This document shows positions 1 to 37,655 of a DNA stretch of 39,927 bases, in pieces. How positions within the stretch are numbered: the first letter of the stretch is position 1; every line of letters begins with the position of its first letter. Position numbers and translations under genes: made by a program. Origin of the DNA: a virus; IMG/VR virus record IMGVR_UViG_3300036770_002192, positions 1-39,927 of that record. One strand, given 5' to 3'. The notes beneath the pieces were generated by a model. The model was not told the DNA's origin, did no database searches, and saw nothing but the letters and a program-made list of their open reading frames with translations.

Positions 1-46
1 CATTTTAAATATTTAGTCAACCTCTGTTTGCCCAATAAATATTTCT
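1..46. promoter_or_regulatory. Short divergent intergenic region with TAAATA boxes
   Basis: The first 46 bases precede the plus-strand gene that starts at 47. AATAAATA lies at 34-41, exactly 5 bases before that ATG, and there is no Shine-Dalgarno sequence. On the minus strand the bases CAT at 1-3 could be the ATG of a divergent gene cut by the window edge, with TAAATA at 15-10, 6 bases upstream. The plus-strand box fits the T4/cyanophage late consensus NATAAATA. The divergent gene is only a guess. Confidence 0.35.
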
Positions 47-598
47 ATGGATTATTCTGCTTTATCACACGGCCAAACACAAAGTAAGATTTGGTTATGC
101 GAAAACCTAGAACCTTATATACCTCACAAAGCAATTGTTGCTAATCTAGGATCTTGGTACAACTTACTAGGATACACTATGTTAGCACGAAACCATAATT
201 TATATCAATCAATTTTGGGCATAGACATTGATCCTAATGTAAAACCCATTGCAGACAAATTATGTGAGGGTTGGATGTTGGGTAAAAACGCTAAGTTACA
301 AAATGTTACAACTGATGCTAACCTATTTAACTACTATGGGTATCACGTTGTAATAAACTGTAGTGTAGAACACATGGATAGTCTTTGGTTCTATAGAATT
401 CCAAAAGGTACATTAGTTTGTATTCAATCCAGTGATGTAGTTCATAATGATAGTATATGGAAAGTTACAAATCCTAACATATCATTGGATGCACTAATCA
501 AAAAATATCCCCTCTCTCATTATATGTTTACTGGTGATAAACATATAGGATATGAAGATTGGGGATATAAGAGATTTATGGTAATTGGTGTTAAGTAA
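47..598 (+). CDS. Putative class I SAM-dependent methyltransferase-like phage protein
   Basis: This 183-residue protein has the layout of a Rossmann-type methyltransferase. A glycine-containing loop near residues 31-46 (VANLGSWYNLLGYTM) is followed by an acidic strand end, GIDIDP (about residues 58-63), where SAM ribose would be bound. A VVINCSVEHMDSLWF motif (about 101-115) resembles the post-motif of phage methyltransferase-like proteins. The substrate cannot be told. It is one of only two plus-strand genes here and ends base-to-base against the convergent ahpD-like gene. No Shine-Dalgarno sequence precedes the ATG; instead AATAAATA ends 5 bases upstream, so the message may be leaderless. 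The fold assignment rests on motif shape only, and a non-catalytic Rossmann protein is possible. Confidence 0.6.
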   Translation: MDYSALSHGQTQSKIWLCENLEPYIPHKAIVANLGSWYNLLGYTMLARNHNLYQSILGIDIDPNVKPIADKLCEGWMLGKNAKLQNVTTDANLFNYYGYHVVINCSVEHMDSLWFYRIPKGTLVCIQSSDVVHNDSIWKVTNPNISLDALIKKYPLSHYMFTGDKHIGYEDWGYKRFMVIGVK

Positions 599-1114
599 TT
601 ATAAAGCCACTTTACCAATTGCCGCAACAACAGCCGCGATTTTCCCCACAGCCTGTAATTCCTGCACCGTCATGCCTTCTTTCTTTAATGTATCATAGTG
701 GTTCTTGACACAAAAATGGCATTTACCGACAATACTTGCAGCCAGTGCATACATCTCAAACTTTTTCTTTGACACACCTCCATGTGTTGCATATGCATTC
801 ATACGTAAGCCGGGTGGTAATCCTTTTAACTGATCATCACCTGTCATTTCTACGAATGGATAGTACACATTATTCATACCCATCAATGCTGCCGCAGTCT
901 TTGCAGCCTCACGTTCTAGAGTCTGGAACAATGGACCGTCCATAGAAATTTCATATGCCAACTCGCCATTGCTTGCCGCAATTGCAGCCGCAAAAGCACA
1001 AGCATGTGCGTCAACTTCATCTAAACCTGATCTATTCATAACTGCATCAAGATTTAACTTGATATCTTTAGCATGATCAGGGATGCTATCCTTAACCTTA
1101 TCTACCCAATTCAT
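599..1114 (-). CDS. ahpD: AhpD-like alkylhydroperoxidase (carboxymuconolactone decarboxylase family)
   Basis: In bacteria AhpD is a small all-helical thiol oxidoreductase that re-reduces peroxiredoxin AhpC. This 171-residue copy keeps the active centre: E120 in KKFEMYALAAS, then KCHFCVKNH with C132, C135 and H139, matching the Glu, Cys-x-x-Cys and His of mycobacterial AhpD. The length is normal for the family. A strong ribosome site (TTTTAGGAG) precedes the ATG. It lies downstream of ahpC on the same strand, with a 31-residue membrane peptide gene between them, so the three are probably co-transcribed. Its stop abuts the stop of the convergent gene with no spacer. AhpC/AhpD pairing is established family knowledge; expression during infection is inference. 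Confidence 0.85.
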   Translation of the reverse strand: MNWVDKVKDSIPDHAKDIKLNLDAVMNRSGLDEVDAHACAFAAAIAASNGELAYEISMDGPLFQTLEREAAKTAAALMGMNNVYYPFVEMTGDDQLKGLPPGLRMNAYATHGGVSKKKFEMYALAASIVGKCHFCVKNHYDTLKKEGMTVQELQAVGKIAAVVAAIGKVAL

Positions 1115-1136
1115 TTATATACTCCTAAAAAGTTCA

Positions 1137-1232
1137 TTATGAATCATTGTTGTCTTTCATTAACTCAGATAAACTGATAGCAACAATTATAGTTATTAGT
1201 AATGCAATAAAAGCAACAATCCAAAAATACAT
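1137..1232 (-). CDS. Small single-pass membrane peptide (31 aa)
   Basis: A short reading frame fills the gap between ahpC and ahpD. It begins ATG at 1232, three bases after the ahpC stop, and ends TAA at 1137-1139. The peptide starts MYFWIVAFIALLITIIVAIS, one uninterrupted hydrophobic stretch long enough to cross a membrane. A short polar tail (SELMKDNNDS) follows. A weak purine-rich ribosome site (GGTGA) lies about 13 bases upstream, and translational coupling to ahpC is possible. I do not recognise a family. The near-perfect fit into the gap and the amphipathic layout argue for a real gene, but at this length chance cannot be excluded. Confidence 0.45.
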   Translation of the reverse strand: MYFWIVAFIALLITIIVAISLSELMKDNNDS

Positions 1233-1235
1233 ATT

Positions 1236-1781: not shown

Positions 1782-1803
1782 TCTGTTTCTCCTTGTGTGT
1801 GAA

Positions 1804-2145
1804 TTACTTTTGTGATCTACAATTGGGGCAAATCAACTGTAAATTTTTTTCATCATAGTTATGATGATTGCCATCTAAATGATCTACTAATAAAGGAATT
1901 TCATGTTTATTGTGTTTTGTATTGTTACATACTTCACACTTATGACCTTTCTGTGAAATAAGATATTTCTTAACATACTCGGGGACTTGTCTCCAAGATT
2001 GTTTTGGATTTTCTTTCCATTCATTAACTAACAATCTGCTACGGTGTTGCTGTTGACAACTATTGTTACAGTATTTGTTGGTATATGAATGACCCTTTAC
2101 AGGGTTTATCTTACCACAATTTAAACAAGTAAAGCATCCATTCAT
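1804..2145 (-). CDS. HNH endonuclease, probably degenerate
   Basis: This 113-residue protein has an N-terminal zinc-ribbon-like part (CFTCLNCGK, then YCNNSC, residues 4-30) and a C-terminal HNH nuclease domain. The HNH part shows CEVC (about 71-74), VDHLDGN with the first His, NLQLICPNC with the Asn, and then RSQK at the end. Phage relatives normally read CPNCHSQ and continue for another 10-20 residues; here the last catalytic His position is Arg and the protein stops four residues later. Such free-standing nucleases usually spread as homing genes. It sits between the pstS terminator and ahpC. The nuclease may be inactive, though the zinc-binding cysteines are kept. Confidence 0.8.
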   Translation of the reverse strand: MNGCFTCLNCGKINPVKGHSYTNKYCNNSCQQQHRSRLLVNEWKENPKQSWRQVPEYVKKYLISQKGHKCEVCNNTKHNKHEIPLLVDHLDGNHHNYDEKNLQLICPNCRSQK

Positions 2146-2221
2146 TGTAAAGCACTCTGTATGTATATATTGCTCTACTAATATTTAAATATGCTACTAT
2201 TTTGTTTTGTTTACCCAAAGA

Positions 2222-3304: not shown

Positions 3305-3309
3305 TTGTG

Positions 3310-4791: not shown

Positions 4792-4799
4792 TATTTATA
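4792..4799 (-). promoter_or_regulatory. T4-type late promoter TATAAATA upstream of iscU
   Basis: The exact T4 late consensus TATAAATA, followed by C, lies 25 bases before the iscU ATG on the minus strand. It embeds the TAA stop of the preceding gene (4795-4797). Predicted transcription would start near 4786, giving a short leader that holds the AAGGAT ribosome site. This would make the Fe-S scaffold a late-expressed gene. Confidence 0.55.
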
Positions 4800-6822: not shown

Positions 6823-9800
6823 TTATGTGATCCAGCAGTCACAGTTACATTCGATTACCTTATCGATTGCTTCTTGTACTGATAAACTTGCTGGTAATAA
6901 CGTGCTATTAGTATACAGAGGATTTAAATTTACGGGTATGGGCGATTTACCCAAAGGTGCGCCAAAGCCCGGAGGGGTCACAATTACTATTCCACCTGGA
7001 TTACCTCCTACTGTTCCCGAACCTGTAGTTCCTCCACTACCTGTTCCTCCAGGATTGCCGCCTCCAGTGCCGCCTCCAGTGCCGCCTCCAGTGCCGCCTC
7101 CAGTGCCATTTCCACCACCATTATTAGTAGACCCGCCGCCACCGCTTCCTCCGCCACCTCCGGGATTACCTCCTCCCCCACTTGGGATTCTATTAGGATC
7201 ACCGTCTGTTTCAAAGTCAGGCACTTGTCCAATCTCAGGATAAGTGTTTACATAATCACCGGGTCCAACTACAACAATAGGACCAACTGCGGGGAATGGT
7301 AAATTTGAGGTGATTGCCGTAAACTCTCCAGGAGTTGTTCCGTCACCTATGATTGGCCCAGAGCCTGTCATTCTGCCTGTTGGCTTAGGTGTTATTAAAT
7401 CTCCACCCTCACCCAAATTACCTGGCCATGCAGGTAGTGTATAATTCTTAGTGTCAGACGGTACTCCGTCAACTGCTCCTGGTATAACTCCATTCATAGT
7501 TACTACTTGTGTTTGCTGTGAAGTCATATCAGTGTTTAAGTTGTTGTCTAACGGAACTCCAACTGTTTGTAATCTTGTTTGATTACGTTCTTGACGTTGC
7601 ATTACAACTGTACTCTGTCCACCAGTAGTATCTAAATCAGATATCGCCTCTAATGTTTGTGCGCTCATATGTGGTTTAGTATCTTGTGCTAAACTTGGAA
7701 TAGAATCAACAAAAACATATAACGACGTTGGGTATAAATTAATCCATATATCTTTTGGTACGGGCACAGGGGGCAATGCAGTAAATCGTGTGCGTTGTTC
7801 TCTTGTTAACTGTGTGCCTAGAATTCTATACATCAAATTATTGTTTACTGTCTCAGTGGGTTTTGCAAGAGATATAGCCAAAATTTCTGCATTAGCCTGA
7901 TCAATGTATTGTTGAATATTGCTATTCATTGGTGCGGGCCATGGATTAGTGCCATAACTTTGTATGCCTTCTCCGTCTAATCCAGGAAACAAGAAAGGAT
8001 CCGAACGAATATCACCCGGAGTGTTTTGACCATTGGTTGCAACATCACCGTTGACACTAACCGGCAACTGTGCTATAGGCCCATGTTGTATAGTAATAGT
8101 TTCTTGTGGTATCGTACCTACTACCCAAGTATAATCTCTGGATACTGATCCATAACCTGGATATCCTCCAAAATATTCAGGCGGGGTAGGTTCTGCATCA
8201 TCGGTATCAGACCCTTGAATATTTACCCAGTTGTCTTGTACTTGTCCGGTAAACCATCTATATCTGCCACCGTTGTTGCTAGTTTTTAATGATACTCTAC
8301 CAAAGGTTCCTCCGCCTAACGATTCTGCAATTGCATCATTTCTGCCTACATCTGTTGTCGCACTTGCTCCCACGTTATTAGGTTTTATTGTAACAACAGG
8401 ATTGGGAGCAGTACCTCTGCCATATCCTCCACCATCTTCTGATAAGTTAATCTTTAATTCATAATACCAATCATAAATCTCAGGCTTTCCTCCATCACTA
8501 TAATATGTAGGACAAGTAGTTTCTGCTCCTGTACTACCATTAACATATGGTATAGGATTATATGCTGGATTAGGTATATAGGGTGGTGCTGACGGATCAG
8601 CAGGATACGCTGGATTAGGTATTTCTTGTCTAGGATCATATGCCGGATTGAATCCATTAGCACTTACAGTTGGTGGAACATATGCTCTAGATATTTGTAT
8701 GTAATAAGGCTGTTGAATCGACATTACAGCCTTTTCCCAAGTAATTGCTAGAAAATCTTGTTGATATATATTGTGTAATTTGCGTGTCTGTAACTTTAGA
8801 ATGCTCTCATACAAGTTTTTCCATGGATAAGGAAGACCACTCATACAACCAAACAAATCACTCATAGTGAATGATCCATAAACTCCGCTACCTTGTGCGC
8901 AAACATTTAATCCATAGTTTGCCATTTCAGTAACAACTGGTCTATCAGTGCCGGTGGCTCTAGGATAACCTGTTCCTGTTTCTGTACCTAATGCTACTAA
9001 AGCAAATTTAGTTATTTCAGCCTGTTGAACATTTCTTATTTGACGCATTGAATAACTAAATGCACCGGCTGCAACCGCATCATCTTGAGGTATAATGCCT
9101 ATTAAATTTGCTCCAAAACCTTTAGGCGGCAATGTAAACGAAGTACCTGAATTTTGTATATCACTAACTGGAGGTGTTCCTGCTGGAATCTGTTCACCTA
9201 CAATTTCTTTTATTGCATTTGACGTAATTTGTGAATTAATTCCAGTACCACTATAAATTAAATAATATGTTTTACTATTAGTTGGCCCGGGCTGTGTATT
9301 GTATATTGGAACCGTCATTGAGGGGAAACTTATAGGAAATAATTTTCTTACACTCAATAAGTCTGCTAATGATATCAACCCTGCTGTTTTACATTGCAAT
9401 GGTGCTAATACGTTTTGTAAATTAATTCCTTGAATTAATAAGAATGCACCATATATTTGTTGTTCTTGTTCTCTAGTTACATCAGTCTTTTGTCCTGATC
9501 CTATTTTACTAATATCAACACTTGATAATCCTGCGGCGATTAATGCTAAACTTAAATCTTGAGTTATTGCACCATTTAAGCCTAATGTTCTTAATAATGT
9601 AGAAGGTAAACCAAATGTAGCAATTGTGCTTAAATCAAGTGCTTTACCTAAGTTAACTAAATCAAGACCAAAATTGTAAACTGCTAAATTGACACCAGTG
9701 ATATCTGCACTAATTAAATCATTACTATTACTAAATGCGCCAACTAAGAATTCTTTACTGTCCTGCATTGCAAATATTGCTTGATTGCTATAATTTACAA

Positions 9801-10392
9801 ACGCATTGGAACTTAAAAACGATGAACAAAATTCTTTGTATTCAGGGGCAGTTAATGCATTATCAGAATTATATTTAAATTCATTCCATGCCTGTAATGC
9901 ATGTAAACGAATATAACCCCACATAGTTACACTTCTATTAACGTTAGATGTATTGTATGGTATCCAACTTGCACTTTGTTTTTGCCATGTATTTCCCGAA
10001 GATGCCCATGCAGTACTTGCCGGTGTCCCTCCAGCAGTCCATAGATTAGCATTATCTATAGGTAAATATGTAGGTGATCTAGCATTACCTAAACTAGGAA
10101 TAGTAGTGAATCCTGTATAGATTAAATTGTCATACGTAGCATTATTTACTAATGTAGAAGCAGAAGAATCAACACCTGTAGTCAATCTTCCTCTATTGTA
10201 TGCATCATGTATCCCCCAAGTCTGTAATCTTAGTACAGTGCCTTGAACCAGTGAACCAAACGAATATAACCCATTGGTTTTACTTGCGCCCATGTAACTG
10301 GCAGCAACTTTATTAATAGTATAGCCCTTATTCTGTAGAACAGAGCCTAATACATTAACACCTAAGGGACTTTGTTTACCTGTATCTGCCAT
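6823..10392 (-). CDS. Large virion structural protein with glycine-rich linker, probably baseplate or tail
   Basis: This is a 1189-residue protein without signal peptide or membrane segment. The N-terminus (SPLGVNVLGSVLQNKGYTIN) is one I recognise from virion proteins of environmental T4-like phages. The middle is rich in Asn, Thr, Pro and Tyr. Near residues 1063-1130 there is an almost pure Gly linker with GGGT units, then a short C-terminal domain (IPVNLNPLYTNSTLLPAS, ending in ECNCDCWIT). It is read directly after the PAAR spike-tip gene, six bases apart, which points to the baseplate or central spike region. The Cys-rich end (C-x-C-x-C) is unusual. The exact T4 equivalent cannot be named. 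Confidence 0.6.
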   Translation of the reverse strand: MADTGKQSPLGVNVLGSVLQNKGYTINKVAASYMGASKTNGLYSFGSLVQGTVLRLQTWGIHDAYNRGRLTTGVDSSASTLVNNATYDNLIYTGFTTIPSLGNARSPTYLPIDNANLWTAGGTPASTAWASSGNTWQKQSASWIPYNTSNVNRSVTMWGYIRLHALQAWNEFKYNSDNALTAPEYKEFCSSFLSSNAFVNYSNQAIFAMQDSKEFLVGAFSNSNDLISADITGVNLAVYNFGLDLVNLGKALDLSTIATFGLPSTLLRTLGLNGAITQDLSLALIAAGLSSVDISKIGSGQKTDVTREQEQQIYGAFLLIQGINLQNVLAPLQCKTAGLISLADLLSVRKLFPISFPSMTVPIYNTQPGPTNSKTYYLIYSGTGINSQITSNAIKEIVGEQIPAGTPPVSDIQNSGTSFTLPPKGFGANLIGIIPQDDAVAAGAFSYSMRQIRNVQQAEITKFALVALGTETGTGYPRATGTDRPVVTEMANYGLNVCAQGSGVYGSFTMSDLFGCMSGLPYPWKNLYESILKLQTRKLHNIYQQDFLAITWEKAVMSIQQPYYIQISRAYVPPTVSANGFNPAYDPRQEIPNPAYPADPSAPPYIPNPAYNPIPYVNGSTGAETTCPTYYSDGGKPEIYDWYYELKINLSEDGGGYGRGTAPNPVVTIKPNNVGASATTDVGRNDAIAESLGGGTFGRVSLKTSNNGGRYRWFTGQVQDNWVNIQGSDTDDAEPTPPEYFGGYPGYGSVSRDYTWVVGTIPQETITIQHGPIAQLPVSVNGDVATNGQNTPGDIRSDPFLFPGLDGEGIQSYGTNPWPAPMNSNIQQYIDQANAEILAISLAKPTETVNNNLMYRILGTQLTREQRTRFTALPPVPVPKDIWINLYPTSLYVFVDSIPSLAQDTKPHMSAQTLEAISDLDTTGGQSTVVMQRQERNQTRLQTVGVPLDNNLNTDMTSQQTQVVTMNGVIPGAVDGVPSDTKNYTLPAWPGNLGEGGDLITPKPTGRMTGSGPIIGDGTTPGEFTAITSNLPFPAVGPIVVVGPGDYVNTYPEIGQVPDFETDGDPNRIPSGGGGNPGGGGGSGGGGSTNNGGGNGTGGGTGGGTGGGTGGGNPGGTGSGGTTGSGTVGGNPGGIVIVTPPGFGAPLGKSPIPVNLNPLYTNSTLLPASLSVQEAIDKVIECNCDCWIT
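7057..7104. repeat. Four perfect 12-bp tandem repeats encoding the Gly linker
   Basis: The unit GCCGCCTCCAGT occurs four times in tandem with no mismatch and is flanked by decayed copies. On the coding (minus) strand each unit gives Thr-Gly-Gly-Gly. Perfect identity at the DNA level suggests recent slippage, so linker length may differ between close relatives. Confidence 0.9.
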
Positions 10393-10397
10393 GATCG

Positions 10398-10679
10398 TTA
10401 TGGACAGTAAACATTGGGACTGCCTTGAATAATTTTATGACCACATGTGTTACCTGAAGTTACTCTAAGTACTGGTACCCCTTCACAAAATACAGTAGGA
10501 CTACCTTCGGTAGTCTTTGCTGCTTTGTGGGGCGGATGCGGTTTTCCAAATGGAGCGTGAGGAGTGATATCGCTTACATGTAATCCTACTGCGATTCCGT
10601 TGGCAAATACGGTGCCTGCGCCCCTAATAATTTGCCCTCCAGTTTCATTTTGATCACCCTTACGACTCAATTGTGGCAT
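10398..10679 (-). CDS. PAAR-motif spike-tip protein
   Basis: PAAR proteins form the sharp metal-bound cone at the tip of contractile-tail spikes (T4 gp5.4, type VI secretion). The 93-residue protein shows the expected beta-repeat pattern: GAGTVFANGIAVG with HVSDITPHAPF, then GSPTVFCEGVPVLRV and GHKIIQGSPNVYCP at the end. His and Cys residues near the repeats can hold the tip metal. The length is the minimal PAAR size, with no toxin extension. It is transcribed immediately before the 1189-residue virion protein and just after the nucleotide operon. Confidence 0.88.
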   Translation of the reverse strand: MPQLSRKGDQNETGGQIIRGAGTVFANGIAVGLHVSDITPHAPFGKPHPPHKAAKTTEGSPTVFCEGVPVLRVTSGNTCGHKIIQGSPNVYCP

Positions 10680-10681
10680 AA

Positions 10682-10987
10682 TTATCCTAATACTAATTTC
10701 TTCTCAGGAACTTTAATTCCTGTTGTTGCCTCAAGATATTTCATCTTTACATTGTCGTCTGTTGGACCAACGATAGCAACGCTATTAGTATTTAGTCTAA
10801 CTGCGGCCTTGGGTTCTGAGGTGAATAAACTGGGAACTAGACCCATGCCTTGCGGGCCGGGGGCAATACTTACTGGCTCTTCTAGTTCTACGTAACCTTC
10901 ACCTGCTGATTTAACTTTGGCTACTAATTCTTCGCCGCTGTTCATTTTAAATGTATATACTTGTCCTACTGTTGTGTTTAAATTCAT
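10682..10987 (-). CDS. Conserved small phage protein, Sm-like beta fold suggested
   Basis: A 101-residue, mostly beta protein beginning MNLNTTVGQVYTFKMNSGEE and continuing LVAKV. The N-terminal pattern, strand-turn-strand with GEELVAKV followed by GYVELEEPVSIAPGPQGMG, resembles Sm/LSm-like small barrels, but I do not recognise a named family. It overlaps the glutaredoxin stop by four bases and precedes the PAAR gene. The function is unknown; it could be a regulator of the operon or a small virion protein. Confidence 0.6.
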   Translation of the reverse strand: MNLNTTVGQVYTFKMNSGEELVAKVKSAGEGYVELEEPVSIAPGPQGMGLVPSLFTSEPKAAVRLNTNSVAIVGPTDDNVKMKYLEATTGIKVPEKKLVLG

Positions 10988-11208
10988 GCTGCTAACCTTT
11001 GTTTAAGTTCTGTAAATCCACCTACATACTCTTCACCCAAGAAGATTTGTGGTACTGTTTTGGCAGTTGGTACTGCTTCTAATAATTCTTCTTTTGTATA
11101 ACCGTCACCGATTTTACGCTCCTCAATCTCATATCCTTTTTGTGTTAATAATGCTTTTGCTTGATCGCAATAGGGACAATGGTACTTACTCCATACTATG
11201 GCTTTCAT
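10984..11208 (-). CDS. Glutaredoxin
   Basis: The 74-residue protein is a minimal glutaredoxin. It has a CPYC redox centre (C11, C14), the cis-proline loop TVPQIF (P53) and the GG motif in VGGFTEL (G63, G64), which together bind glutathione. In T4 the equivalent (NrdC) supplies electrons to ribonucleotide reductase. Its position directly downstream of nrdA and nrdB, 15 bases after nrdB with an AAGGAGAAA ribosome site, supports that role here. It is shorter than T4 NrdC but complete. Confidence 0.93.
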   Translation of the reverse strand: MKAIVWSKYHCPYCDQAKALLTQKGYEIEERKIGDGYTKEELLEAVPTAKTVPQIFLGEEYVGGFTELKQRLAA

Positions 11209-11223
11209 TTTATTTTCTCCTTA

Positions 11224-12336
11224 TTATAATGTAGGTAAATCTTCGTAGTCTATTGAATCGCTCATAACACCTATTACATAGTTGGTGCTTTCGTTTTCTT
11301 GCAATGCTGTTTGCTTTTTACTGGTTTCACTATGTTTGTTGAACCATGGAATAGGAGTAGTCTTTGGTGCTGTGTTCCAATACTTGATTCCAATCTGCTT
11401 CAATGCATCTTGTGCTGTATAGTCAACAAAGTCTTTTAAAATGTTTGCGTTAAGACCAATCACAGGACCTTTCTTAAACAAATACTCAGCCCATTCTTTT
11501 TCTTCACGTATAACATCACTATAAATTGCAAGAACCTCTTGTTCACATTCTTGTTTTGCTTTGGCAAATCTACTATCTTCTTTAACAACTTGGTTGATTA
11601 GGAATGCAGTCCAACCCTTATGTAGTAATTCATCTTGTAGGATCAAACTAATAATGTTGCCATTACCAATAAAGATTTTGTTTTCAACCATTGCTAGACT
11701 TGTAGCGAATGATACCATAAATCTAAATGCTTCTAGTGCATAACTTGCGTGTAATGCTAGATAGATTGCTTTAATATGGTCTGCTTCACTAAAAGGAACT
11801 GATGGAGACTCTGAAGTTTCTTTTAAACAATTTAATCTATGCAAGTCATCATAATACTTTCCAACACTACTTGCCATATCAACAATTTCTTTAGTGTCAT
11901 GGATAGTATTGAATACTTCCTTAGGTACATTATAGATGTTACGAATAATATGACTGTAACTACGACTATGAATGTTAGTCTCAAAGAATGTCCAATTATA
12001 AACAAGTGCTTCTAATTCAGGTAATGATATAACTGGTGTAAAGATTTGACTGGGTCCGCGCCCTTGTAAACTATCAAGTGCTGTTTGCCTAAGTAAGTTA
12101 CTAGTAAAGATATGTTTTACTGCGTCACTAGCGTCTTTAAAATCTTGCGAATCTTTAGTCAAACTGATTTCTTCGGGTACCCAAAAGAATCCACGTGCAG
12201 TCTTTTCAAAATCTGCAATCTTGTTATATTTTACTTCTTCAAAACGTTGAATGGTTACAGGACCAGCAGGGTCCAAAAACATTTTACGATTGATGTAGTC
12301 TGTCTTTGTCTGTAAGTTGTATTGTTGTCTACTCAT
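11224..12336 (-). CDS. nrdB: Class Ia ribonucleotide reductase small subunit
   Basis: NrdB carries the di-iron tyrosyl radical needed by NrdA to make deoxynucleotides. In the 370 residues the ligands and radical site are visible: D88 (ALDSLQGR), E119 and H123 (FFETNIHSRSY), Y127 as the radical tyrosine, E202 (LEAFRF), and E236 and H239 (DELLH). The end, SIDYEDLPTL, is the usual NrdA-docking tail. One oddity is that E119 and H123 are four residues apart, where E. coli (E115, H118) has three, because of an extra Asn. It overlaps the 143-residue gene by eight bases and is followed by glutaredoxin. Confidence 0.95.
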   Translation of the reverse strand: MSRQQYNLQTKTDYINRKMFLDPAGPVTIQRFEEVKYNKIADFEKTARGFFWVPEEISLTKDSQDFKDASDAVKHIFTSNLLRQTALDSLQGRGPSQIFTPVISLPELEALVYNWTFFETNIHSRSYSHIIRNIYNVPKEVFNTIHDTKEIVDMASSVGKYYDDLHRLNCLKETSESPSVPFSEADHIKAIYLALHASYALEAFRFMVSFATSLAMVENKIFIGNGNIISLILQDELLHKGWTAFLINQVVKEDSRFAKAKQECEQEVLAIYSDVIREEKEWAEYLFKKGPVIGLNANILKDFVDYTAQDALKQIGIKYWNTAPKTTPIPWFNKHSETSKKQTALQENESTNYVIGVMSDSIDYEDLPTL

Positions 12337-12760
12337 TTGTATGATATGTCTGTTTAAAAATGTCTGCTTTTACGACTCCATAATCACCGGGTCCGTGTCT
12401 TACAATATAATCGTTACCAGCAGTATAGTTCAATGTTTCTCCCCATGATGTTTTTACGCTACCATCATGGTCTGCAAGTTTTGCAACTTTCATAATCTTT
12501 TTAGGAGTACATACTCCATCACCCAAATCATCTTTAAGTTCTTTAAACTTTTCGGGTGGCATAGGATATTGTTCACCTTTGGGTCCAGTTAAAATATAAT
12601 ACCCTGCTTTGTAATTAACAGGACCCTCTAATGTTTGGATAGTTCCATCCTGTTGTGCAATCTCGTACTTTTCTTTTGCTGGCTTTTTATAAGTTTGAAA
12701 TCCATCTTTAAACCAAGCATCGTTCAATGTATCTTCCATTAGATTCAATAAATTTCTCAT
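12329..12760 (-). CDS. Duplicated-domain protein between nrdA and nrdB
   Basis: This 143-residue soluble protein is encoded inside the nrd operon, overlapping nrdA by four bases and nrdB by eight. Two halves are clearly related. EKYEIAQQDGTIQTLEGPVN, continuing YKAGYYILTGPKGEQYPMPPEKF (about 30-72), aligns with AKLADHDGSVKTSWGETLNY, continuing TAGNDYIVRHGPGDYGVVKADIF (about 93-135). Each half reads as a small beta-domain ending in a GP-G-Y loop and a short helix. I do not recognise a named function. The RNR context suggests a nucleotide-related or reductase-regulatory role, which is inference. Confidence 0.65.
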   Translation of the reverse strand: MRNLLNLMEDTLNDAWFKDGFQTYKKPAKEKYEIAQQDGTIQTLEGPVNYKAGYYILTGPKGEQYPMPPEKFKELKDDLGDGVCTPKKIMKVAKLADHDGSVKTSWGETLNYTAGNDYIVRHGPGDYGVVKADIFKQTYHTNE

Positions 12761-15078
12761 AACTTACATGCCTCGCAATCATCGTCTAATAATTCAATGT
12801 TCTCTACAGTTGTGTTCTCAATAACATCTTGTTCTTGAACCTTTGCACCCTGTTTGTTTATCAAACTATAATAGAAGGTCTTTAGACCCCACATATGGGC
12901 TTGCATCAAGTTCTTAGCAATAAGTGTAGTTGGAACCTTTCTGTCTGTAAAGTGTGCTGGGTTATAAAACGTGTTAGTACTTATGCTTTGATCAACATAA
13001 GCGGCCAAAACTGCCGCAGTTTTAATATACCCAACACAGTCCTTTTGTTCCCACATTAATTGATATTTGTTTTTGAGTTTCTGAAACTCTGGAACCACCT
13101 GTGTGAAACTACCTGCTTTACTTTCTTTAACAGTAATGAGGGACATAGGCAACTCAATACCATTAGTACTATTAATAACGACGCTACTAGATTCAACAGG
13201 AGCAATGGCCATAAGTGTTGCATTTCGTACTCCATATGTTTTCATTTGTTCACGTAACGGTTCCCAATCTAGTTCGGGACTAAAATTGGCCAATTCGTTA
13301 ACACCCTTTGCTCTGAGTTCCCAGGGAAACTTACCTTGACCGTAACGTGTTTTGCTACTCTCACTACACGGACCTCTTTCTTTTGCGAGTTCGACTGTGG
13401 CTTCTGTGAGATAGAATGCTTGGTGTTCCATCCAACTCTTAACTTCTTGCAGTGCTTCTTTGTCACCATATTTCAATCCTTTTTTAGCATGCCAATATGC
13501 TAAGTTGGTTACGCCAATACCTAATGGCTGAATCTCATCATTACTTAACTTAGACTGTATGGATAGAAAATCTTGATAATCCAATATATTGCAAAGGCTG
13601 CGCTGCAATATGCGGCAAGCCCTACGCATATCTTCAGGGTTTCTGAATGCACCCCAGTTGATTGAGCCCAACGTGCATAGAGCGATACGACCAGCGCTGT
13701 CATCCAAACGCTTAAAGGGCTTAGTAGGAAGTAGAATTTCACAGCATAAATTTGACTGATAGATAGTGTGGTATTCAGGGTCAAATGGTCCTTGATTCAT
13801 TACATTATCAATGAACACAAGATAAATTCTACCTGTATCAGTTCTCTCCTTTAGTATACCACTCTTAAAAACTTCTTCGGCTGACATAGTTTTCTTACGC
13901 AAGCCTTTTTGCTTTTCATATTTTACATATAGTTCTTCAAACTTTTCTGTATTAGAATAGAATGCTTCATATAAATCTGGTACTTCATTTGGATCAAAGA
14001 AAGTTATGTTTTCTCTGTTTTTGAATCTTCTCCAGAAGAAACTACTAAGCACAACCCCATAATCCATATGACGTACTCTGGTTTCTTCGGTTCCTTGATT
14101 GTTTTTAAGTACAATAAGATCATCAAACTGATGATGCCAAATAGGATAGAATACAGTAGCACTTGCATTGCGAATACCTCCCTGTGAGCAACTACGCAAA
14201 TCACCAAACCACTTCTTAAGGAAAGGAATCATGCCGGTGTGCATAATCTCACCGCCTCTAATAGGACTACCTAGAGGTCTTAATCTGCCAATCTCTAAAC
14301 CAATGCCAGCACGTTTGCTAGCATACTTTGCCATCATTTCTCCTGACGCAAAGATCGAATCCAAGTCATCGTCGCTACGGATAAGTACGCAACTGCTAAA
14401 CTGCTTAGTAGGAGTGCCAAGACCGGCGAGAACAGGAGTAGCAAGAGTAAATAAGCCGTCACTTGCGGCATTGTAATATTCCTTGATGTAACGCATGCGG
14501 GCACTGTTGGGTTCTTCTTTGTGGAATACAGTGGCGGCTGCAACCATGTAGCGTACTTGCGGTGTCTCATAAATTTCCTTTGTGCTACGATTACGCACAA
14601 GATATTTTTCAATTAATTGTTCGATAGCCGCATAAGAATATTGTTCATCTTTCTCATGCTCAAGCATATCATTCATTTTATTCCAATCGTCTTGACTATA
14701 CCATTCTAATAGTTCTGGTGAGTAAAGTCCGATGGATACATTCTTTTTTACGATTTCATAAAGATGAGGAGGATTATAACCTCCGTATACATCTTTACGT
14801 AACATACTTAATCTTTGTTTACCTGCAACATATTGATAATTTGTATTTCCAATATCTGGATTACTTTCAATATCAATAAGATCGACAACCGCACGTAATG
14901 TTATTTCATCAATTTCTCTAGTTGTAATTCCGTCATAGAAATGTGGTTGAGCCTTGATTTCTATCATTGACTGACTTACATCTGCTATGCCTTTACATAT
15001 TTTTGCTACTTGCGCTTGCCATTTTTCTAGTGTTAATAATTCTTTATTCCCGTCTCGTTTAGTGACATATATTTTCAT
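12757..15078 (-). CDS. nrdA: Class Ia ribonucleotide reductase large subunit
   Basis: NrdA reduces ribonucleoside diphosphates. The 773 residues begin with an ATP-cone (MKIYVTKRDGNKELLTLEKW onward, about 1-95), the site of overall allosteric control. The catalytic set is complete: C230 (FSSCVLI), N443, C445 and E447 (NLCCE), C468 (ALCTLGSINW), the radical-transfer pair Y736-Y737 (TFYYS), and a C-terminal redox pair C768/C771 (CEACKL) that takes electrons from glutaredoxin. The tail pair is C-x2-C rather than the C-x4-C of E. coli. It is first of the nrdA/143 aa/nrdB/grx run and overlaps the 147-residue gene by four bases. Confidence 0.96.
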   Translation of the reverse strand: MKIYVTKRDGNKELLTLEKWQAQVAKICKGIADVSQSMIEIKAQPHFYDGITTREIDEITLRAVVDLIDIESNPDIGNTNYQYVAGKQRLSMLRKDVYGGYNPPHLYEIVKKNVSIGLYSPELLEWYSQDDWNKMNDMLEHEKDEQYSYAAIEQLIEKYLVRNRSTKEIYETPQVRYMVAAATVFHKEEPNSARMRYIKEYYNAASDGLFTLATPVLAGLGTPTKQFSSCVLIRSDDDLDSIFASGEMMAKYASKRAGIGLEIGRLRPLGSPIRGGEIMHTGMIPFLKKWFGDLRSCSQGGIRNASATVFYPIWHHQFDDLIVLKNNQGTEETRVRHMDYGVVLSSFFWRRFKNRENITFFDPNEVPDLYEAFYSNTEKFEELYVKYEKQKGLRKKTMSAEEVFKSGILKERTDTGRIYLVFIDNVMNQGPFDPEYHTIYQSNLCCEILLPTKPFKRLDDSAGRIALCTLGSINWGAFRNPEDMRRACRILQRSLCNILDYQDFLSIQSKLSNDEIQPLGIGVTNLAYWHAKKGLKYGDKEALQEVKSWMEHQAFYLTEATVELAKERGPCSESSKTRYGQGKFPWELRAKGVNELANFSPELDWEPLREQMKTYGVRNATLMAIAPVESSSVVINSTNGIELPMSLITVKESKAGSFTQVVPEFQKLKNKYQLMWEQKDCVGYIKTAAVLAAYVDQSISTNTFYNPAHFTDRKVPTTLIAKNLMQAHMWGLKTFYYSLINKQGAKVQEQDVIENTTVENIELLDDDCEACKL

Positions 15079-15518
15079 GGTTTGCCTATTTTGGTTATTA
15101 TTGGCGAAACGTCATATCGTTTCGTTACTGTGAAGTCTTGTAGACAGTTATTTACTACCGTATTAGGCCAGTAATTCAATACATATTTTGCGTTATCAAC
15201 AAGGACTAATACCACATCTTCACTATTATCGTCTTTTGCGTCAACTAAGTCAATATCTTTGATACCCAATAACAATAGCGTATAAATTATACCCAAAGCA
15301 CGTGCATATGGACAATAATTATTATCTGCCAATAACTCCCATGGATTAGGCCAATGTGGCATATCAATTGGGTGTAAGTAATAAGTTACCTGCGGGGACT
15401 GTTGCCAAAATGCGTCTATCTGTATACATTTCTCTTTTAAATCGCAAGAACTTATTTTTTCTCTGAGGTCGTGCCAAGCACGTAGTCTTGTTTGATAATC
15501 TAATACAAATACATTCAT
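15075..15518 (-). CDS. Conserved phage protein upstream of nrdA, unknown function
   Basis: A 147-residue soluble protein. The best conserved part is PHWPNPWELLADNNYCPYAR and the following ALGIIYTL, a block I recognise from environmental phages but without a function. A DVVLVLVDNAKYVLNYWP strand pattern follows. A single Cys near an alpha/beta stretch could hint at a transglutaminase or NlpC-like fold, but this is weak. The ATG at 15518 is preferred to the in-frame TTG one codon earlier. It is the first gene of the nrd operon and is separated from the divergent plus-strand gene by only 27 bases. Confidence 0.6.
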   Translation of the reverse strand: MNVFVLDYQTRLRAWHDLREKISSCDLKEKCIQIDAFWQQSPQVTYYLHPIDMPHWPNPWELLADNNYCPYARALGIIYTLLLLGIKDIDLVDAKDDNSEDVVLVLVDNAKYVLNYWPNTVVNNCLQDFTVTKRYDVSPIITKIGKP

Positions 15519-15545
15519 CAATACTACTTATCATTAAATACATGC
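15519..15545. promoter_or_regulatory. 27-base divergent control region
   Basis: This short gap separates the nrd operon's first gene (minus) from the sulfotransferase-like gene (plus). For the plus strand, ATTAAATA at 15533-15540 lies 5 bases before the ATG and no Shine-Dalgarno is present, the same layout as before four other genes here. No equally clear element is seen for the minus strand. Confidence 0.4.
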
Positions 15546-16190
15546 ATGATTAATAATGAAACCTATCTAATCAGTTTTACTGCAGGGTGCTGTGGTGTTT
15601 TCATCAAAACAATACTAGAACAAATACTGGCTCAAGATCATGTAGCATATCAAAGAGTTATAGAGTTTCCTAATTCACATGCACATGATGTATGTTTTTG
15701 GAATAATTCAGAAGGTGATTCTACTTTTTATCCTTTTATGCCTTCTAGTACAATCGATGACAAAAAAGATTATCAATCTATATTGACAACATATGATGAT
15801 AAGCCATTAACATATAGAGAACACAATGCACCAAATTGGGAATCTTTTTTCAGTATATTTCCTAATGGGAAAAATATTGTAATTACCTTTTCAGAAAACA
15901 TGACAAAGTATATGATTAATTTTGCACATCATAAACTTGGAAAAAAATATGAGTTAAACACGTATAGTACACATGTGTTTCCATTCTCTTATAAGTATCC
16001 ATTAGTAGTACCAAATGAATATAAAGATAAAGTATTTGAAATCAAACTAGAAGATATACTGTTTAATAAAGAAAAGGTATTAGGCTTGTTGTCTATTATA
16101 ACAAACAAGCCTATACCAAATTTTGTAGATAAAACTTACGATAATTATTTGAGGGCACAGCGTGAGGTGTTCCCCGAATTGTTTAATTAG
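15546..16190 (+). CDS. Putative sulfotransferase-like phage protein
   Basis: The 214-residue protein starts with a strand-loop-helix, YLISFTAGCCGVFIKTILEQ, that resembles the degenerate P-loop (PAPS-binding loop) of phage sulfotransferase-like proteins. The C-terminus (VFEIKLEDILFNKEKVLGLL onward, with a final YLRAQREVFPELF) resembles the sulfotransferase end, where a conserved strand is followed by helices. Catalytic residues cannot be fixed by eye, so the call is tentative; a kinase-like or inactive P-loop protein is possible. It is one of two plus-strand genes, its TAG overlaps the TAA of the convergent fibre gene, and its ATG has a TAAATA box 5 bases upstream. Modification of surface sugars is a reasonable guess given the neighbouring fibres. 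Confidence 0.5.
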   Translation: MINNETYLISFTAGCCGVFIKTILEQILAQDHVAYQRVIEFPNSHAHDVCFWNNSEGDSTFYPFMPSSTIDDKKDYQSILTTYDDKPLTYREHNAPNWESFFSIFPNGKNIVITFSENMTKYMINFAHHKLGKKYELNTYSTHVFPFSYKYPLVVPNEYKDKVFEIKLEDILFNKEKVLGLLSIITNKPIPNFVDKTYDNYLRAQREVFPELFN

Positions 16191-20155: not shown

Positions 20156-20242
20156 GTCTAATCCCTAATACAAGTATTTATCTTTTTTGAACCCATAAGT
20201 ATACATAAAAGTCTATGTATATTTATCGATTTTTACAAATAC
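20156..20242 (-). promoter_or_regulatory. Tandem late-promoter boxes and inverted repeat before the 1322-aa fibre gene
   Basis: Two GATAAATA boxes on the minus strand (20182-20175 and 20227-20220) are spaced 45 bases apart upstream of the fibre ATG at 20155. Between them lies a perfect 8-bp inverted repeat, TATACATA / TATGTATA (20200-20207 and 20214-20221), with a 6-base spacer; it overlaps the distal box. The layout suggests two stacked late promoters for this fibre gene, or a promoter plus a processing or termination hairpin for the gene before it. Confidence 0.5.
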
Positions 20243-34451: not shown

Positions 34452-34476
34452 AGTATAGTATTTATCTTACTATACT
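34452..34476. promoter_or_regulatory. Inverted repeat containing a late-promoter box before the long fibre gene
   Basis: Perfect 9-bp arms AGTATAGTA and TACTATACT are separated by 7 bases. On the minus strand GATAAATA (34466-34459) overlaps the spacer and proximal arm, and the arm ends directly at the fibre ATG (34451). The stop of the upstream 121-residue gene (TAG, 34470-34472) lies in the other arm. No Shine-Dalgarno is present. Confidence 0.5.
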
Positions 34477-34845: not shown

Positions 34846-35934
34846 TTACTGATATCTATATTTAATAATTACTATGCCGGAACCACCATTTCCGCCCGTT
34901 TGATACGGAGAAGGAGCACCATTTCCTGCACCTGATCCACCACCACCGCCGGTGTTTGCACCGCCGGCACCACCTAAATATCCACTACAACTTCCTCCTG
35001 GATTTCTTCCACCAGTTCCGCCACTACCAAATCTACTGCTGTCTCCCCAGCCGGCTCCGCCGCCACCTGCACCACCATTACCTCCATAAGTGCCTGCTGT
35101 GTTATAGTAATATATCATTCCGGCACCACCACCACCATAATAATAATTGTTACCGTCTATATTATTTTGAACTCCTGTGCCCCCATTGCCACCTGAACTT
35201 GCATTGTTTGGTGGACTGCTACCATTACCCCCGGCGCCGGCGCCGCCACCTGTAGGGTAATTTCCACCATTCTGTCCTGTTCCACCTGTGTAGCCACCAT
35301 ATCTAGTAAAAGTATTCCAAACATTAGTACCTGTTTGTCCTTGATAGCCTGCGGTTCTTGATCCGCCCCCGCCACCGTTAGCAATAGTATTTCTTAAAGT
35401 TGTTACCCCGTAATAGTCTGAACCTACACCGCCGCCACCAGGTAATGCTGTTTCGCCAAATGCAGTAGTAGAACTCCCTGGTGGTATATTAATACTAGGA
35501 CCATTACCTGGATCTGTGCCTCCGCCTCCAATCACAATAGGATATGCAGTTGCACTAACTGTAACTGAAGCGCAGTATATGACTTCTCCACCACCGCCAC
35601 CGCCAGTGTAACTACCGCCGGACGCACCTCCTCCAACCATCAAAACTTCAATTGAAGTGTTATAAGGTGCGACACTTACAAGAAATGACCCTGAACTTGT
35701 GAAAGTATGTATTTTGTAATTACCTGATGTAGTTACTGTACCGCCAGTTGCTTCTATGTATCCTATTTTGATTGCGCCGAACCAACCACCGTTTGTGTAT
35801 ATTTCAATATAATTAGTATCAGTATTGAATCTAGTATACCCTTCAGCAGGGCTTGACGGTCTTTGAGCAGTGGTTCCCATTGGATATTGTAAATATCCAG
35901 TGTCATTCACTGATGTATTTTTAAGAGTTGCCAT
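34846..35934 (-). CDS. Glycine-rich tail fibre paralogue (362 aa)
   Basis: The N-terminal module NDTGYLQYPMGTTAQRPSSP (residues 10-29) is followed by a strand-rich part (YKIHTFTSSGSFLVSV and EVLMVGGGASGG). A long Gly/Asn/Ala-rich body with short GGGG and GNGG runs fills most of the rest, ending NGGSGIVIIKYRYQ. Such proteins resemble the polyglycine-helix adhesins of T4-like phages (gp38 of Salmonella phage S16), which bind host receptors through loops between Gly-rich helices. It is joined to the preceding gene by a TAATG stop-start overlap. The Gly-rich body is likely variable between relatives. Confidence 0.8.
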   Translation of the reverse strand: MATLKNTSVNDTGYLQYPMGTTAQRPSSPAEGYTRFNTDTNYIEIYTNGGWFGAIKIGYIEATGGTVTTSGNYKIHTFTSSGSFLVSVAPYNTSIEVLMVGGGASGGSYTGGGGGGEVIYCASVTVSATAYPIVIGGGGTDPGNGPSINIPPGSSTTAFGETALPGGGGVGSDYYGVTTLRNTIANGGGGGSRTAGYQGQTGTNVWNTFTRYGGYTGGTGQNGGNYPTGGGAGAGGNGSSPPNNASSGGNGGTGVQNNIDGNNYYYGGGGAGMIYYYNTAGTYGGNGGAGGGGAGWGDSSRFGSGGTGGRNPGGSCSGYLGGAGGANTGGGGGSGAGNGAPSPYQTGGNGGSGIVIIKYRYQ

Positions 35935-37013
35935 TATTGATATCTATATCTTATAATCACAATACCACTACCGCCGGTGCCGCCTGATAATCCACCAGGC
36001 CCTCCATCACCAGCGCCGGCACCGCCGCCACCGCCTGTATTTGCGCCACCGCTTCCACCTACATATCCAGATGGATTTCCTCCTGAATTAAATCCTGCAC
36101 CACCTGTTCCAAAATAACCACCTGGTGCCCAGCCACCACCTCCGCCACCTGCACCGCCGTTGCCACCTCTTGTGCTAGCAGAGCCGTTATAATAAATCAT
36201 TCCTGCGCCGCCACCGCCCCAGTATAAAGCAGCGCCTGTTATAGAAATGCTTACACCATCTCCACCATTACCACCGCCTACACCATTGTTTACAGGGGCA
36301 ACACCGTTAGCAGTTGCGCCTCCACCACCACCGCATGGATAATTACCGTTGTTTTGTCCACTGCCGCCACTATATCCACCGTATCTAGTAAAAGGTATTG
36401 ACACGTTAGTGCCTGTTGAGCCACCATAACCACTTGAGCGTGATCCTCCTCCGCCACCATTAGCATATGTGCTAGATGCAGGAGTTGTAGTTGAATCAGA
36501 ACCTTTACCTCCACCCCCGCCTTTGGCAGTTTCCCCAAAACCTGTAGTTGTAGAACCACCTCCACCTATAATATCACCACCGTTACCATTACTAGATGCA
36601 CCACCTCCACCTATAACTAATGAATAAGAGGCTGCTGATAGTGATGCTGTTGATGTATATAATACTTCCCCTGCACCACCGCCACCTGAGTAACCACCTG
36701 AGCCTCCACCGCCACCAACCATTAATATTTCAAATGTTGAGCCAGTAGGAACTGAAGTTACTGTAAAAGTACCTGATGCTGTAAAGGTATGTATTTTGTA
36801 ATTACCTGAATAGGTAATTGTTCCGCCAGTAGCCTGAATCGTGCCTATAGGAGCAACGGTATTCCATACACCGTTGTAATACATTTCTATAGATGCTGTT
36901 GTGGAATTTACCCTCATGTAACCATTAGCAGGTGAAGGTCTTTGAGCAGTAGTTCCTACTGGTAACTGTAAGTACCCTGTATCATTTATAGATGAATTTT
37001 TTAATGTAGCCAT
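35934..37013 (-). CDS. Glycine-rich tail fibre paralogue (359 aa)
   Basis: It shares the opening MATLKNSSINDTGYLQLPVG and the closing TGGSGIVIIRYRYQ with its neighbours. The N-terminal 100 residues and the SGIVII end are conserved among the paralogues, while the Gly-rich centre differs in loop content (TRYGGYSGGSGQNNGNYPCG against TRYGGYTGGTGQNGG in the next gene). No ribosome site is seen before its ATG; AATAAATA lies 5 bases upstream inside a perfect inverted repeat. A gene-duplicate adhesin is the natural reading. Confidence 0.8.
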   Translation of the reverse strand: MATLKNSSINDTGYLQLPVGTTAQRPSPANGYMRVNSTTASIEMYYNGVWNTVAPIGTIQATGGTITYSGNYKIHTFTASGTFTVTSVPTGSTFEILMVGGGGGSGGYSGGGGAGEVLYTSTASLSAASYSLVIGGGGASSNGNGGDIIGGGGSTTTGFGETAKGGGGGKGSDSTTTPASSTYANGGGGGSRSSGYGGSTGTNVSIPFTRYGGYSGGSGQNNGNYPCGGGGGATANGVAPVNNGVGGGNGGDGVSISITGAALYWGGGGAGMIYYNGSASTRGGNGGAGGGGGGWAPGGYFGTGGAGFNSGGNPSGYVGGSGGANTGGGGGAGAGDGGPGGLSGGTGGSGIVIIRYRYQ

Positions 37014-37034
37014 AATACTATTTATTATAGTATT
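37014..37034. promoter_or_regulatory. Inverted repeat containing a late-promoter box at the oxygenase/fibre junction
   Basis: Perfect 8-bp arms AATACTAT and ATAGTATT are separated by 5 bases (37014-37021 and 37027-37034). The minus-strand AATAAATA (37026-37019) lies across the loop, 5 bases before the fibre ATG at 37013. The TAA stop of the oxygenase gene (37027-37025) is also inside. The arrangement repeats that at 34452-34476. Confidence 0.5.
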
Positions 37035-37642
37035 AATTCTGTTAGTTCGTTATCGTCTCCTAACTTTCCAACAGGAAATGTGTTGAAACTTAAACTCATT
37101 CTAGTATATTGAGTCTCTAATCTAGTTTCAACCATATGCGTAAGTTTACTAGGAAACAACAATAATTGACCAGTTACACTAGGTAACCACCAACTGTCGC
37201 TATTGTAGGTGTTATATTCTCTAGCGGGGATCTTAAATTGTTTGTAACTATCCTCATAGAAATAAATTTTGTCAGTTTCATTATTAGTTTGAAAATAAAA
37301 TACACCACTAATAAAACTGTTTGGATGTGTATGTCTATGATGGAATTCCATACCCTCAGTATAGTTACACCAACTCTGTGTAATTCTTAATCTTACATTG
37401 TTTTTTGGCTGATATATTCTATCAAAGTATTCTTGTGTACAAGAATTGAGGAAATCACTTATTTCCGTCAATTCAGGTTCTTTAAGTACATAGAAATTTG
37501 TACTTTTCTGATTACCAATATTCTTTGCTTTTTCTAAATCACGAACAAAAATTAGTTCTTCTTGTGTGAATTCTCTAGGAAATGTGTAGATTCCAACTGG
37601 TGTAGGGAAAAGATTGACTATATTAGATTGTATGTTATTCAT
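37025..37642 (-). CDS. 2OG-Fe(II) oxygenase, TIGR02466-like
   Basis: The 205-residue protein begins VNLFPTPVGIYTFPREF, the typical start of the TIGR02466 putative oxygenase family. Metal and cosubstrate motifs are visible: FHHRHTHPNSFISGVFYFQ (His ligand region) and GQLLLFPSKLTHMVE with the distal His, then RMSLSFNTF with the Arg expected to hold 2-oxoglutarate. Members occur widely in T4-like marine phages beside fibre genes. Hydroxylation of fibre residues or a host molecule is possible but unproven. There is no ribosome site, but ATTAAATA lies 5 bases before the ATG. Confidence 0.75.
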   Translation of the reverse strand: MNNIQSNIVNLFPTPVGIYTFPREFTQEELIFVRDLEKAKNIGNQKSTNFYVLKEPELTEISDFLNSCTQEYFDRIYQPKNNVRLRITQSWCNYTEGMEFHHRHTHPNSFISGVFYFQTNNETDKIYFYEDSYKQFKIPAREYNTYNSDSWWLPSVTGQLLLFPSKLTHMVETRLETQYTRMSLSFNTFPVGKLGDDNELTELIL

Positions 37643-37647
37643 TCAGA

Positions 37648-37655
37648 TATTTAAT
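37648..37655 (-). promoter_or_regulatory. ATTAAATA box 5 bases before the oxygenase ATG
   Basis: On the minus strand the box is followed by TCTGA and then ATG at 37642. There is no Shine-Dalgarno sequence. The first two bases deviate from NATAAATA, but the spacing equals that at 47, 15546 and 37013. Confidence 0.4.

Follow-up and report, generated by a model that had tools for sequence, protein, structure and literature searches.

A probable T4-type late-promoter hexamer at a fixed five-base distance from the ATG predicts leaderless late mRNAs in some T4-like phages

The stretch of DNA analysed here, referred to as the window, is the IMG/VR virus record IMGVR_UViG_3300036770_002192 at its full length of 39,927 bases, and the element in question is the hexamer TAAATA, found exactly five bases before the ATG of four of its genes and seven bases before that of a fifth. 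Direct reading gave AATAAATA-N5-ATG at 47 (+) and at 37013 (-), ATTAAATA-N5-ATG at 15546 (+) and at 37642 (-), and GATAAATA-N7-ATG at 34451 (-), which bore out the positions and gaps listed in an earlier sequence-only reading of this DNA. The TAAATA core is exact in all five sites; three of them (AATAAATA twice, and GATAAATA) fit NATAAATA, and the other two are ATTAAATA. The gene list of the window runs on the minus strand throughout except for the two genes at 47 and 15546. Coordinates of the boxes and genes are collected in Table 1.

Table 1. Candidate late boxes of the window, the genes that follow them, and boxes at other distances for comparison
Feature	Position	Strand	Remark
Candidate TAAATA late box, 5 bases to ATG 47	36..41	+	Read from the sequence
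183-aa gene	47..598	+	Without Pfam or PHROG family; begins 46 bases from contig end
Candidate TAAATA late box, 5 bases to ATG 15546	15535..15540	+	Spacing same in L005 and L006, spacer unrelated
214-aa gene	15546..16190	+	Without known family; L005 and L006 homologues 54-56% identical
TAAGTA box-like hexamer, 6 bases to ATG 15518	15525..15530	-	Precedes divergent gene 15075-15518; putative role
Candidate TAAATA late box, 5 bases to ATG 37013	37019..37024	-	Within inverted repeat, 8-base arms
359-aa gene	35934..37013	-	Matches phrog_2295, of unknown function, and a glycine-rich domain; context is fibre-like
Candidate TAAATA late box, 5 bases to ATG 37642	37648..37653	-	Its TAA is the stop of upstream gene 37651-38028
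2OG-Fe(II) oxygenase gene, 205 aa	37025..37642	-	Family match
Candidate TAAATA late box, 7 bases to ATG 34451	34459..34464	-	Within inverted repeat, 9-base arms; predicted 2-base leader
Long gene, 1809 aa	29022..34451	-	Tail-fibre matches
TAAATA box, 23 bases to ATG 34835, Shine-Dalgarno GAGG	34859..34864	-	Leadered form for comparison
TAAATA box, 19 bases to ATG 20155	20175..20180	-	Without strict Shine-Dalgarno 4-mer
TAAATA box, 25 bases to ATG 4766, Shine-Dalgarno AGGA	4792..4797	-	Leadered form

The functional labels proposed for the five genes fared unequally. The oxygenase at 37642 was confirmed by its family match, and of the two supposed fibre genes that at 34451 is upheld by its matches, while for the product of 37013, whose only matches are a glycine-rich domain and families without assigned function, a fibre role is plausible. 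The labels methyltransferase-like (47) and sulfotransferase-like (15546) were dropped as unsupported: neither product matched a PHROG or Pfam family, Pfam being tried up to an E value of 5, and the single NCBIfam match of the 47 product (E 0.0087) lies far below the cut-off. None of the five genes has a Shine-Dalgarno (SD) 4-mer 3-12 bases before its ATG, as had been claimed, a result largely forced by the box itself; the accompanying statement that most other genes of the window have one was too strong, the count being 16 of 34.

TAAATAN5ATG occurs four times in the window, on all four occasions at the start of a called gene, and the reversed control pattern twice. Dinucleotide shuffling of the 45-base regions upstream of the 38 called genes gave a mean of 0.11 and a maximum of 1 in 200 shuffles, as compared with the four sites observed; in the unshuffled regions, boxes at spacings 4, 6 and 7 number 0, 0 and 1, respectively. 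The hexamer as such is not over-represented in the window (41 vs 70 expected), its position alone being special. Among 80 relatives (L005-L084) we observed 12 sites vs 1.98 in shuffles (maximum 5 in 60). The window and these relatives taken together (81 sequences, 1.21 Mb) contain 18 copies of TAAATA at spacing 5 before an in-frame ATG, whereas 14 permuted hexamers average 1.9 at this spacing, with a maximum of 8 (ATAAAT). The TAAATA-to-ATG distances form a one-base-wide spike at 5 and a separate broad mode at approximately 17-36.

The spike is also present in pelagimyophages (HTVC008M and Mosig), weakly in the OM43 phage Melnitz, and in the large phage contigs G037 and G029, and is missing from T4, from the analysed part of KVP40 and from six cyanophages. 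By genome, the spacing-5 counts are 10 in HTVC008M, 9 in G022, 6 in G023, 5 in Mosig, 3 in Melnitz (a number also reached in at least one of its 200 shuffles), 9 in G001-G003 together and 4 in the window. They are zero in S-SKS1, DSL-LC03, Syn9, S-PM2, S-CAM4 and KVP40 (180 of 245 kb), two in P-HM2 and one each in X1 and T4; the lone T4 match vanishes once counting is restricted to first ATGs, and the six cyanophages have 2 sites vs 1.5 in shuffles. The X1 site (1 vs a shuffle mean of 0.07, maximum 1) is located at the homologue of gene 3. At loci of HTVC008M relatives, with near-identical contigs counted separately, spacings 4, 5 and 6 were occupied 0, 68 and 3 times around gene 2 (31 loci) and 1, 64 and 0 times around gene 23 (80 loci). 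Many of the records are near duplicates, and counting by gene family removes this duplication only in part; on that basis, families at spacings 4, 5 and 6 number 2, 33 and 2 in the pelagimyophage set, 6, 15 and 5 in the window group, 0, 2 and 0 in the six cyanophages and 0, 2 and 0 in T4, KVP40 and X1 combined. In the pelagimyophage set, 13 families have the box at spacing 0, again a somewhat raised number. Gene calls are simple open reading frames (ORFs) in all genomes but HTVC008M.

In HTVC008M, 12 of the 14 TAAATAN5ATG matches are annotated gene starts, those of the tape measure, DNA end protector, head closure, tail tube cap, baseplate wedge, a second baseplate gene, tail completion, CsgF, a 2OG oxygenase, a cyclase, a regulator and one unknown. 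Gene 2, for the DNA end protector, and gene 4, for head closure, are divergent, and the 26 bases between them contain both boxes. Gene 2 has the box at spacing 5 in 5/5 pelagimyophage/OM43 genomes (38-67% identity to HTVC008M), and the homologues found in DSL-LC03, S-PM2, S-CAM4, X1 and T4 lack the hexamer within 60 bases and show, by eye, an SD-like stretch. Gene 3 has spacing 5 in HTVC008M, Mosig, G023 and X1 and 22 in Melnitz; the distance is 21-24 in two cyanophages, and three others have no box. For gene 4, spacing 5 is limited to HTVC008M and G022, and the distance is 32-43 in Mosig, G023 and Melnitz. Spacings of the 31132 baseplate gene (probably gene 53) are 5, 5, 8, 8 and 16 in the pelagimyophage/OM43 genomes and 20-26 in four cyanophages; in Syn9, X1 and T4 it lacks the box. 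Of the other HTVC008M sites, those of CsgF, the cyclase and the second baseplate gene recur in G022 and that of the cyclase also in Melnitz, and those of the oxygenase and the regulator recur in none. In the genomes compared, SD-like leaders precede the capsid gene and any sheath gene that was identified.

Among the window sites, that at 15546 is retained in both homologues found (Table 1), and one of several partial homologues of 37013 (L035) has the box at spacing 5, the others having no box. A homologue of 47 shows a spacing of 24 and a partial homologue of 34451 one of 15; 2OG homologues of the 37642 product either lack the box or have it at 21 or 41. Conservation of every window site was consequently discarded: it was not found for 47, 37642 and 34451 and is partial for 37013.

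The divergent arrangement seen between genes 2 and 4 recurs as a symmetric cassette, CAT-N5-TATTTA-N4-TAAATA-N5-ATG, which was found in 82 IMG/VR stretches, as compared with 14 for the N6/N6 and 3 for the N4/N4 control patterns (all viral contigs). All of the 80 listed loci were analysed, and 67 of them have ORFs of at least 50 aa, or open-ended ones, on both sides (controls: 3/14 and 1/3). These 67 loci represent 20 pair families, the largest of which, with 23 loci, is pelagimyophage gene 2/gene 4. In 332 sequences fetched without the cassette pattern (4.8 Mb, gene 2 loci included), the gap between two boxes that both stand five bases from their ATGs is always 4 (4 distinct cassettes). Within 25 cassette contigs, TAAATAN5ATG occurs 248 times vs 31 for the reversed pattern, and 198 times after subtraction of the two matches per contig guaranteed by the selection.

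Two of the cassette-bearing contigs show the spike on their own. G037 (126 kb, 33% GC) has 31 boxes at spacing 5 and 0, 3 and 5 at spacings 4, 6 and 7, and G029 (220 of 517 kb, 45% GC) has 23 at spacing 5, 1 at 4 and 0 at 6; the share of late-type boxes near gene starts that stand at spacing 5 is 31/52 and 23/43, respectively. The hexamer precedes the first ATG of 29 called genes of G037 at this spacing, and SD motifs were found in 12/143 of its genes. Sheath, head-tail adaptor and endonucleases are among its spacing-5 genes (10/31 searched), and terminase, virion proteins and a tail collar/fibre protein among those of G029 (10/23 searched). Genes with the box in HTVC008M, G029 and G037 include virion genes, together with an oxygenase, a cyclase, a regulator and endonucleases; in the window, the fibre gene has it at spacing 7. 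Two GIY-YIG homing endonucleases and two other endonuclease-like genes are among the ten searched in G037 (L450, L453, L454), each with TAAATA-N5-ATG, as if the promoter travelled with endonuclease genes.

Genes of this class tend to head transcription units. A divergent upstream neighbour was found for 11/33 spacing-5 genes vs 81/869 other genes in five genomes (p=0.0002), 12/31 vs 18/113 in G037 (p=0.008), 12/21 vs 94/298 in G029 (p=0.017) and 4/12 vs 26/195 in the window with G001-G003 (p=0.077). Overlap with the upstream gene is rare in the same four sets (1/33, 1/31, 0/21 and 0/12), as compared with 33-47% of other genes (407/869 in the five-genome set). Runs of at least five T within 25 bases upstream accompany 35/101 spacing-5 and 29/186 leadered boxes of the pelagimyophage set vs 153/1919 genes, and 3/18 spacing-5 boxes of the window group vs 45/1325 genes, the gene baseline being the fixed stretch -36 to -10. 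Inverted repeats surround 21/104 spacing-5 sites of the pelagimyophage set (6.1 in shuffles) and 2/19 of the window group (1.6 in shuffles). They were rejected as a separate element: approximately half of the pelagimyophage cases are back-to-back boxes (TATTTA-gap-TAAATA), and the window group is near the shuffle level. Two long inverted repeats of the window, 34452-34476 and 37014-37034, end at the ATG; a readthrough mRNA could fold there and a leaderless one could not.

The same hexamer occurs in the same genomes at 17-36 bases from the ATG, and at that distance an SD 4-mer is present in 48/85 cases of the window group and 133/193 of the pelagimyophage set, vs 0/20 and 3/110 at spacing 5. 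Leadered boxes of cyanophages are accompanied by an SD in just 35/155 cases, so that leaders are often SD-less by this measure. ATG is the start codon at 108/110 and 19/22 spacing-5 sites, a weak sign of leaderless genes. In the pelagimyophage set both spacing classes prefer an A before the box (0.81 of the 110 spacing-5 sites), a T at +7 and an A at +8, a shared preference that is not clear in the window group. Between +6 and +14 of leadered boxes, A is commonest at +11 in each of the four groups (fraction 0.50-0.59), with +8 equal to it in the pelagimyophage set, and in the spacing-5 class box position +11 is the A of the ATG. Since leadered copies exist in the same genomes, with similar flanks in the pelagimyophage set, we regard the spacing-5 box as a positional class of the ordinary late promoter, and not as the distinct late regulon of the sequence-only reading. 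The leaderless interpretation given in that reading was sustained in part: the enrichment of the five-base spacing that it had asked to be checked was found in relatives as a single-base spike, a family-level excess, a conserved orthologous site and a divergent form.

The T4 late box spans about -13 to -6, and T4 late transcription is a textbook system with promoters normally well upstream of the start codon. TAAATA would be the core of such a promoter, read by a gp55-family sigma factor, and the gp55-bearing RNA polymerase is expected to initiate six bases past the last A of the box, with a tolerance of one or two bases. For T4 and cyanophages this would usually place the gene some 12-30 bases beyond the start site; in the window group, in pelagimyophages and in certain other large phages, a number of presumed late genes would begin at +1 or at most two bases off. 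We consider it very probable, judging from sequence comparison, that these are gp55-type late promoters with +1 on or within two bases of the AUG, and that the resulting late mRNAs, carrying a 5'-terminal AUG, are translated as leaderless messages. Pelagimyophages would use the spacing-5 form for minor parts of the virion and certain accessory genes, capsid and sheath being leadered, and the sheath gene of G037 has a spacing-5 box. Box, spacer and start codon together measure 14 bases, a unit that could therefore travel with a gene and be doubled back to back; the carriers in the window (both plus-strand genes, the oxygenase, the glycine-rich protein and, at spacing 7, the fibre gene) would fit a small portable promoter.

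Several observations weigh against this reading. The absence of SD at spacing 5 is largely forced, because the box fills most of the SD stretch. Two window boxes, as ATTAAATA, deviate from TATAAATA/NATAAATA, and of the five window sites that at 15546 alone is clearly conserved. Family counts at the neighbouring spacings show a blunter spike in the window group than in the pelagimyophage set, and even in pelagimyophages membership of the class, gene 2 excepted, varies from genome to genome (gene 4, the 31132 baseplate gene, and the regulator, which has its spacing-5 box in HTVC008M only). Furthermore, gp55 was found in none of the 11 window and window-group records searched, all of them fragments, and the sigma factor of the window phage is for this reason unseen.

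The alternatives differ in how much of the pattern they account for. The hexamer might be a translation signal, an A/U-rich stretch between -11 and -6 bound by ribosomal protein S1 or 16S rRNA in hosts with weak SD usage, as its fixed distance to the start codon and its occupation of the SD place would allow; we regard this as improbable, because the same hexamer stands 17-36 bases upstream elsewhere, often with an SD in between, because spacing-5 genes head transcription units and seldom overlap upstream genes, and because permuted hexamers fall well behind TAAATA. A distance exact to one base would, moreover, presumably be needless for such a signal. Still less credit, hardly any in our estimate, is given to chance, by which AT-rich upstream regions and TAA stop codons would yield TAAATA near ATGs. 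The fragment is indeed AT-rich, and the box ahead of 37642 takes its TAA from the stop codon of the preceding gene; nevertheless, the shuffles, the permuted hexamers, the family counts, the spike of G029 at 45% GC and the excess of the cassette over its controls led us to reject it for the class, although any single window site could still be due to chance.

A closer competitor holds that the leaders are very short, with +1 varying by a few bases and the ribosome tolerating leaders of 0-4 bases, so that 'leaderless' would be approximate. Spacing 7 is raised in the window group (5 in G001-G003, 1 in the window) and in G037, where spacing 6 is also occupied, as this would predict; the single-base spike in HTVC008M, G022, G029 and the gp23 loci, where spacing 4 has at most one box and spacing 6 none, argues the other way. 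We find this account rather doubtful, albeit clearly less so than the two preceding ones; it overlaps with the leaderless late-promoter reading, which itself allows up to two bases, and the likelihoods of the two are not to be added. In a 40-kb stretch of G024 (L468-L469, 58% GC), TAAATA stands five times at spacing 4 and three times at spacing 5, and the start distance may be shifted by a base in some lineages.

The late promoters of T4, KVP40 and cyanomyoviruses (TATAAATA, NATAAATA; gp55-gp33-gp45) share with the present class the box core and similar kinds of genes, and gp55 homologues exist in the pelagimyophage and OM43 genomes. They differ in distance: in T4, KVP40 (part), X1 and six cyanophages the gap from box to ATG is mostly 17-36 bases and shows no spike at 5, X1 having one spacing-5 site. 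Leaderless genes of bacteria and lambda resemble those described here in the promoter element (-10) just upstream of the start, the lack of SD and the AUG start, but have host-type Pribnow boxes, whereas the present box would be read by a phage late sigma factor and often precedes genes for virion proteins.

The T4-type late box sits about one helical turn upstream of the start site (PMC2988020), and late promoters NATAAATA are known in cyanophages (PMC2984593). Leaderless initiation is described for lambda, with a high occurrence of leaderless genes in Actinobacteria and Deinococcus-Thermus (PMC3160421), and leaderless phage mRNA as such is not new, since phage transcripts are stated in general terms to be often leaderless (PMC5312081). 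Prediction of late promoters was unsuccessful in pelagimyophage genomes (PMC7029224), for which the closeness of the box to the ATG may be the reason, and 15 late promoters were listed for Melnitz from a TATAAAT query (PMC9004378). Both papers deal with the same phages, but in their available portions mention neither a fixed ATG distance nor leaderless late mRNAs; the word 'leaderless' is absent from that of PMC7029224 and occurs in those of PMC9004378 and the Mosig paper (PMC7892664) only within the title of a gene-finder reference. Searches of an open-access library showed no report of leaderless T4-type late genes. If gene starts have indeed shifted onto +1 in phages of SAR11 and relatives, essential virion genes are predicted to be expressed from leaderless mRNAs, which raises the question of how streamlined hosts translate such messages. 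TAAATA-N5-ATG also offers a simple rule to find late genes and to check start codons in metagenomic phages.

The candidate sigma factor gp55 was found in 14/14 reference genomes or part genomes compared and in 6/27 cassette contigs, G037 and G029 among them. In T4, the C-terminal tail of gp55 binds the clamp. The gp55 proteins of HTVC008M, G022 and Melnitz have a C-terminal tail ending in LEYFMQ or a LEKFYDE-like motif, resembling the KVP40 and T4 tails; in the alignment, six cyanophage proteins stop before this tail, and that of Mosig and G023 is longer and lysine-rich, with no clear motif. Ribosomal protein bS21 (PF01165) is encoded in 5/5 pelagimyophage/OM43 genomes (HTVC008M, L101:11228-11428; G022, G023, Mosig and Melnitz) and was found in 0/15 other phage genomes and 0/22 window-group records, all of the latter being fragments. 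It may matter for non-SD initiation. A tie between bS21 and the whole spacing-5 class was set aside as not general, given its absence from the 22 window-group fragments and the mutual relatedness of the five carriers. As a tentative extension, which we think possible but rather unlikely in its entirety, part of the T4 superfamily would run a leaderless late programme, the bS21 of pelagimyophages and the OM43 phage could retune host ribosomes to 5'-terminal AUGs late in infection, and box-N5-ATG would serve as a portable promoter for inserted genes such as endonucleases, oxygenases and opposite-strand orphans.

Among the remaining features of the window, the GATAAGTA sequence at the TAAGTA hexamer (15525..15530) recurs, by eye, in L005 and L006, and the box ahead of ATG 20155 lies at distances of 19, 19 and 18 in L005, L006 and L009. 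A 542-aa protein of the window matches exclusively Synechococcus, Prochlorococcus and 'Cyanophage' records (123, each below 60% identity), and the 26 window proteins with matches in 14 reference genomes are divided between Melnitz (6), P-HM2 (5), X1 (3) and others, scattered. The fragments G001-G003, close relatives of the window, encode distant homologues (28-36%) of HTVC008M capsid, portal or sheath proteins. By these comparisons we call the window phage T4-like, with an uncertain host. No DNA near-match among named phages was found for the 8.3-kb stretch 6823-15078. The ribonucleotide reductase subunits at 12757-15078 and 11224-12336 have their nearest relatives, among the phages compared, in Xanthomonas phage X1 (60-61%) and not in cyanophages, which hints at a proteobacterial host.

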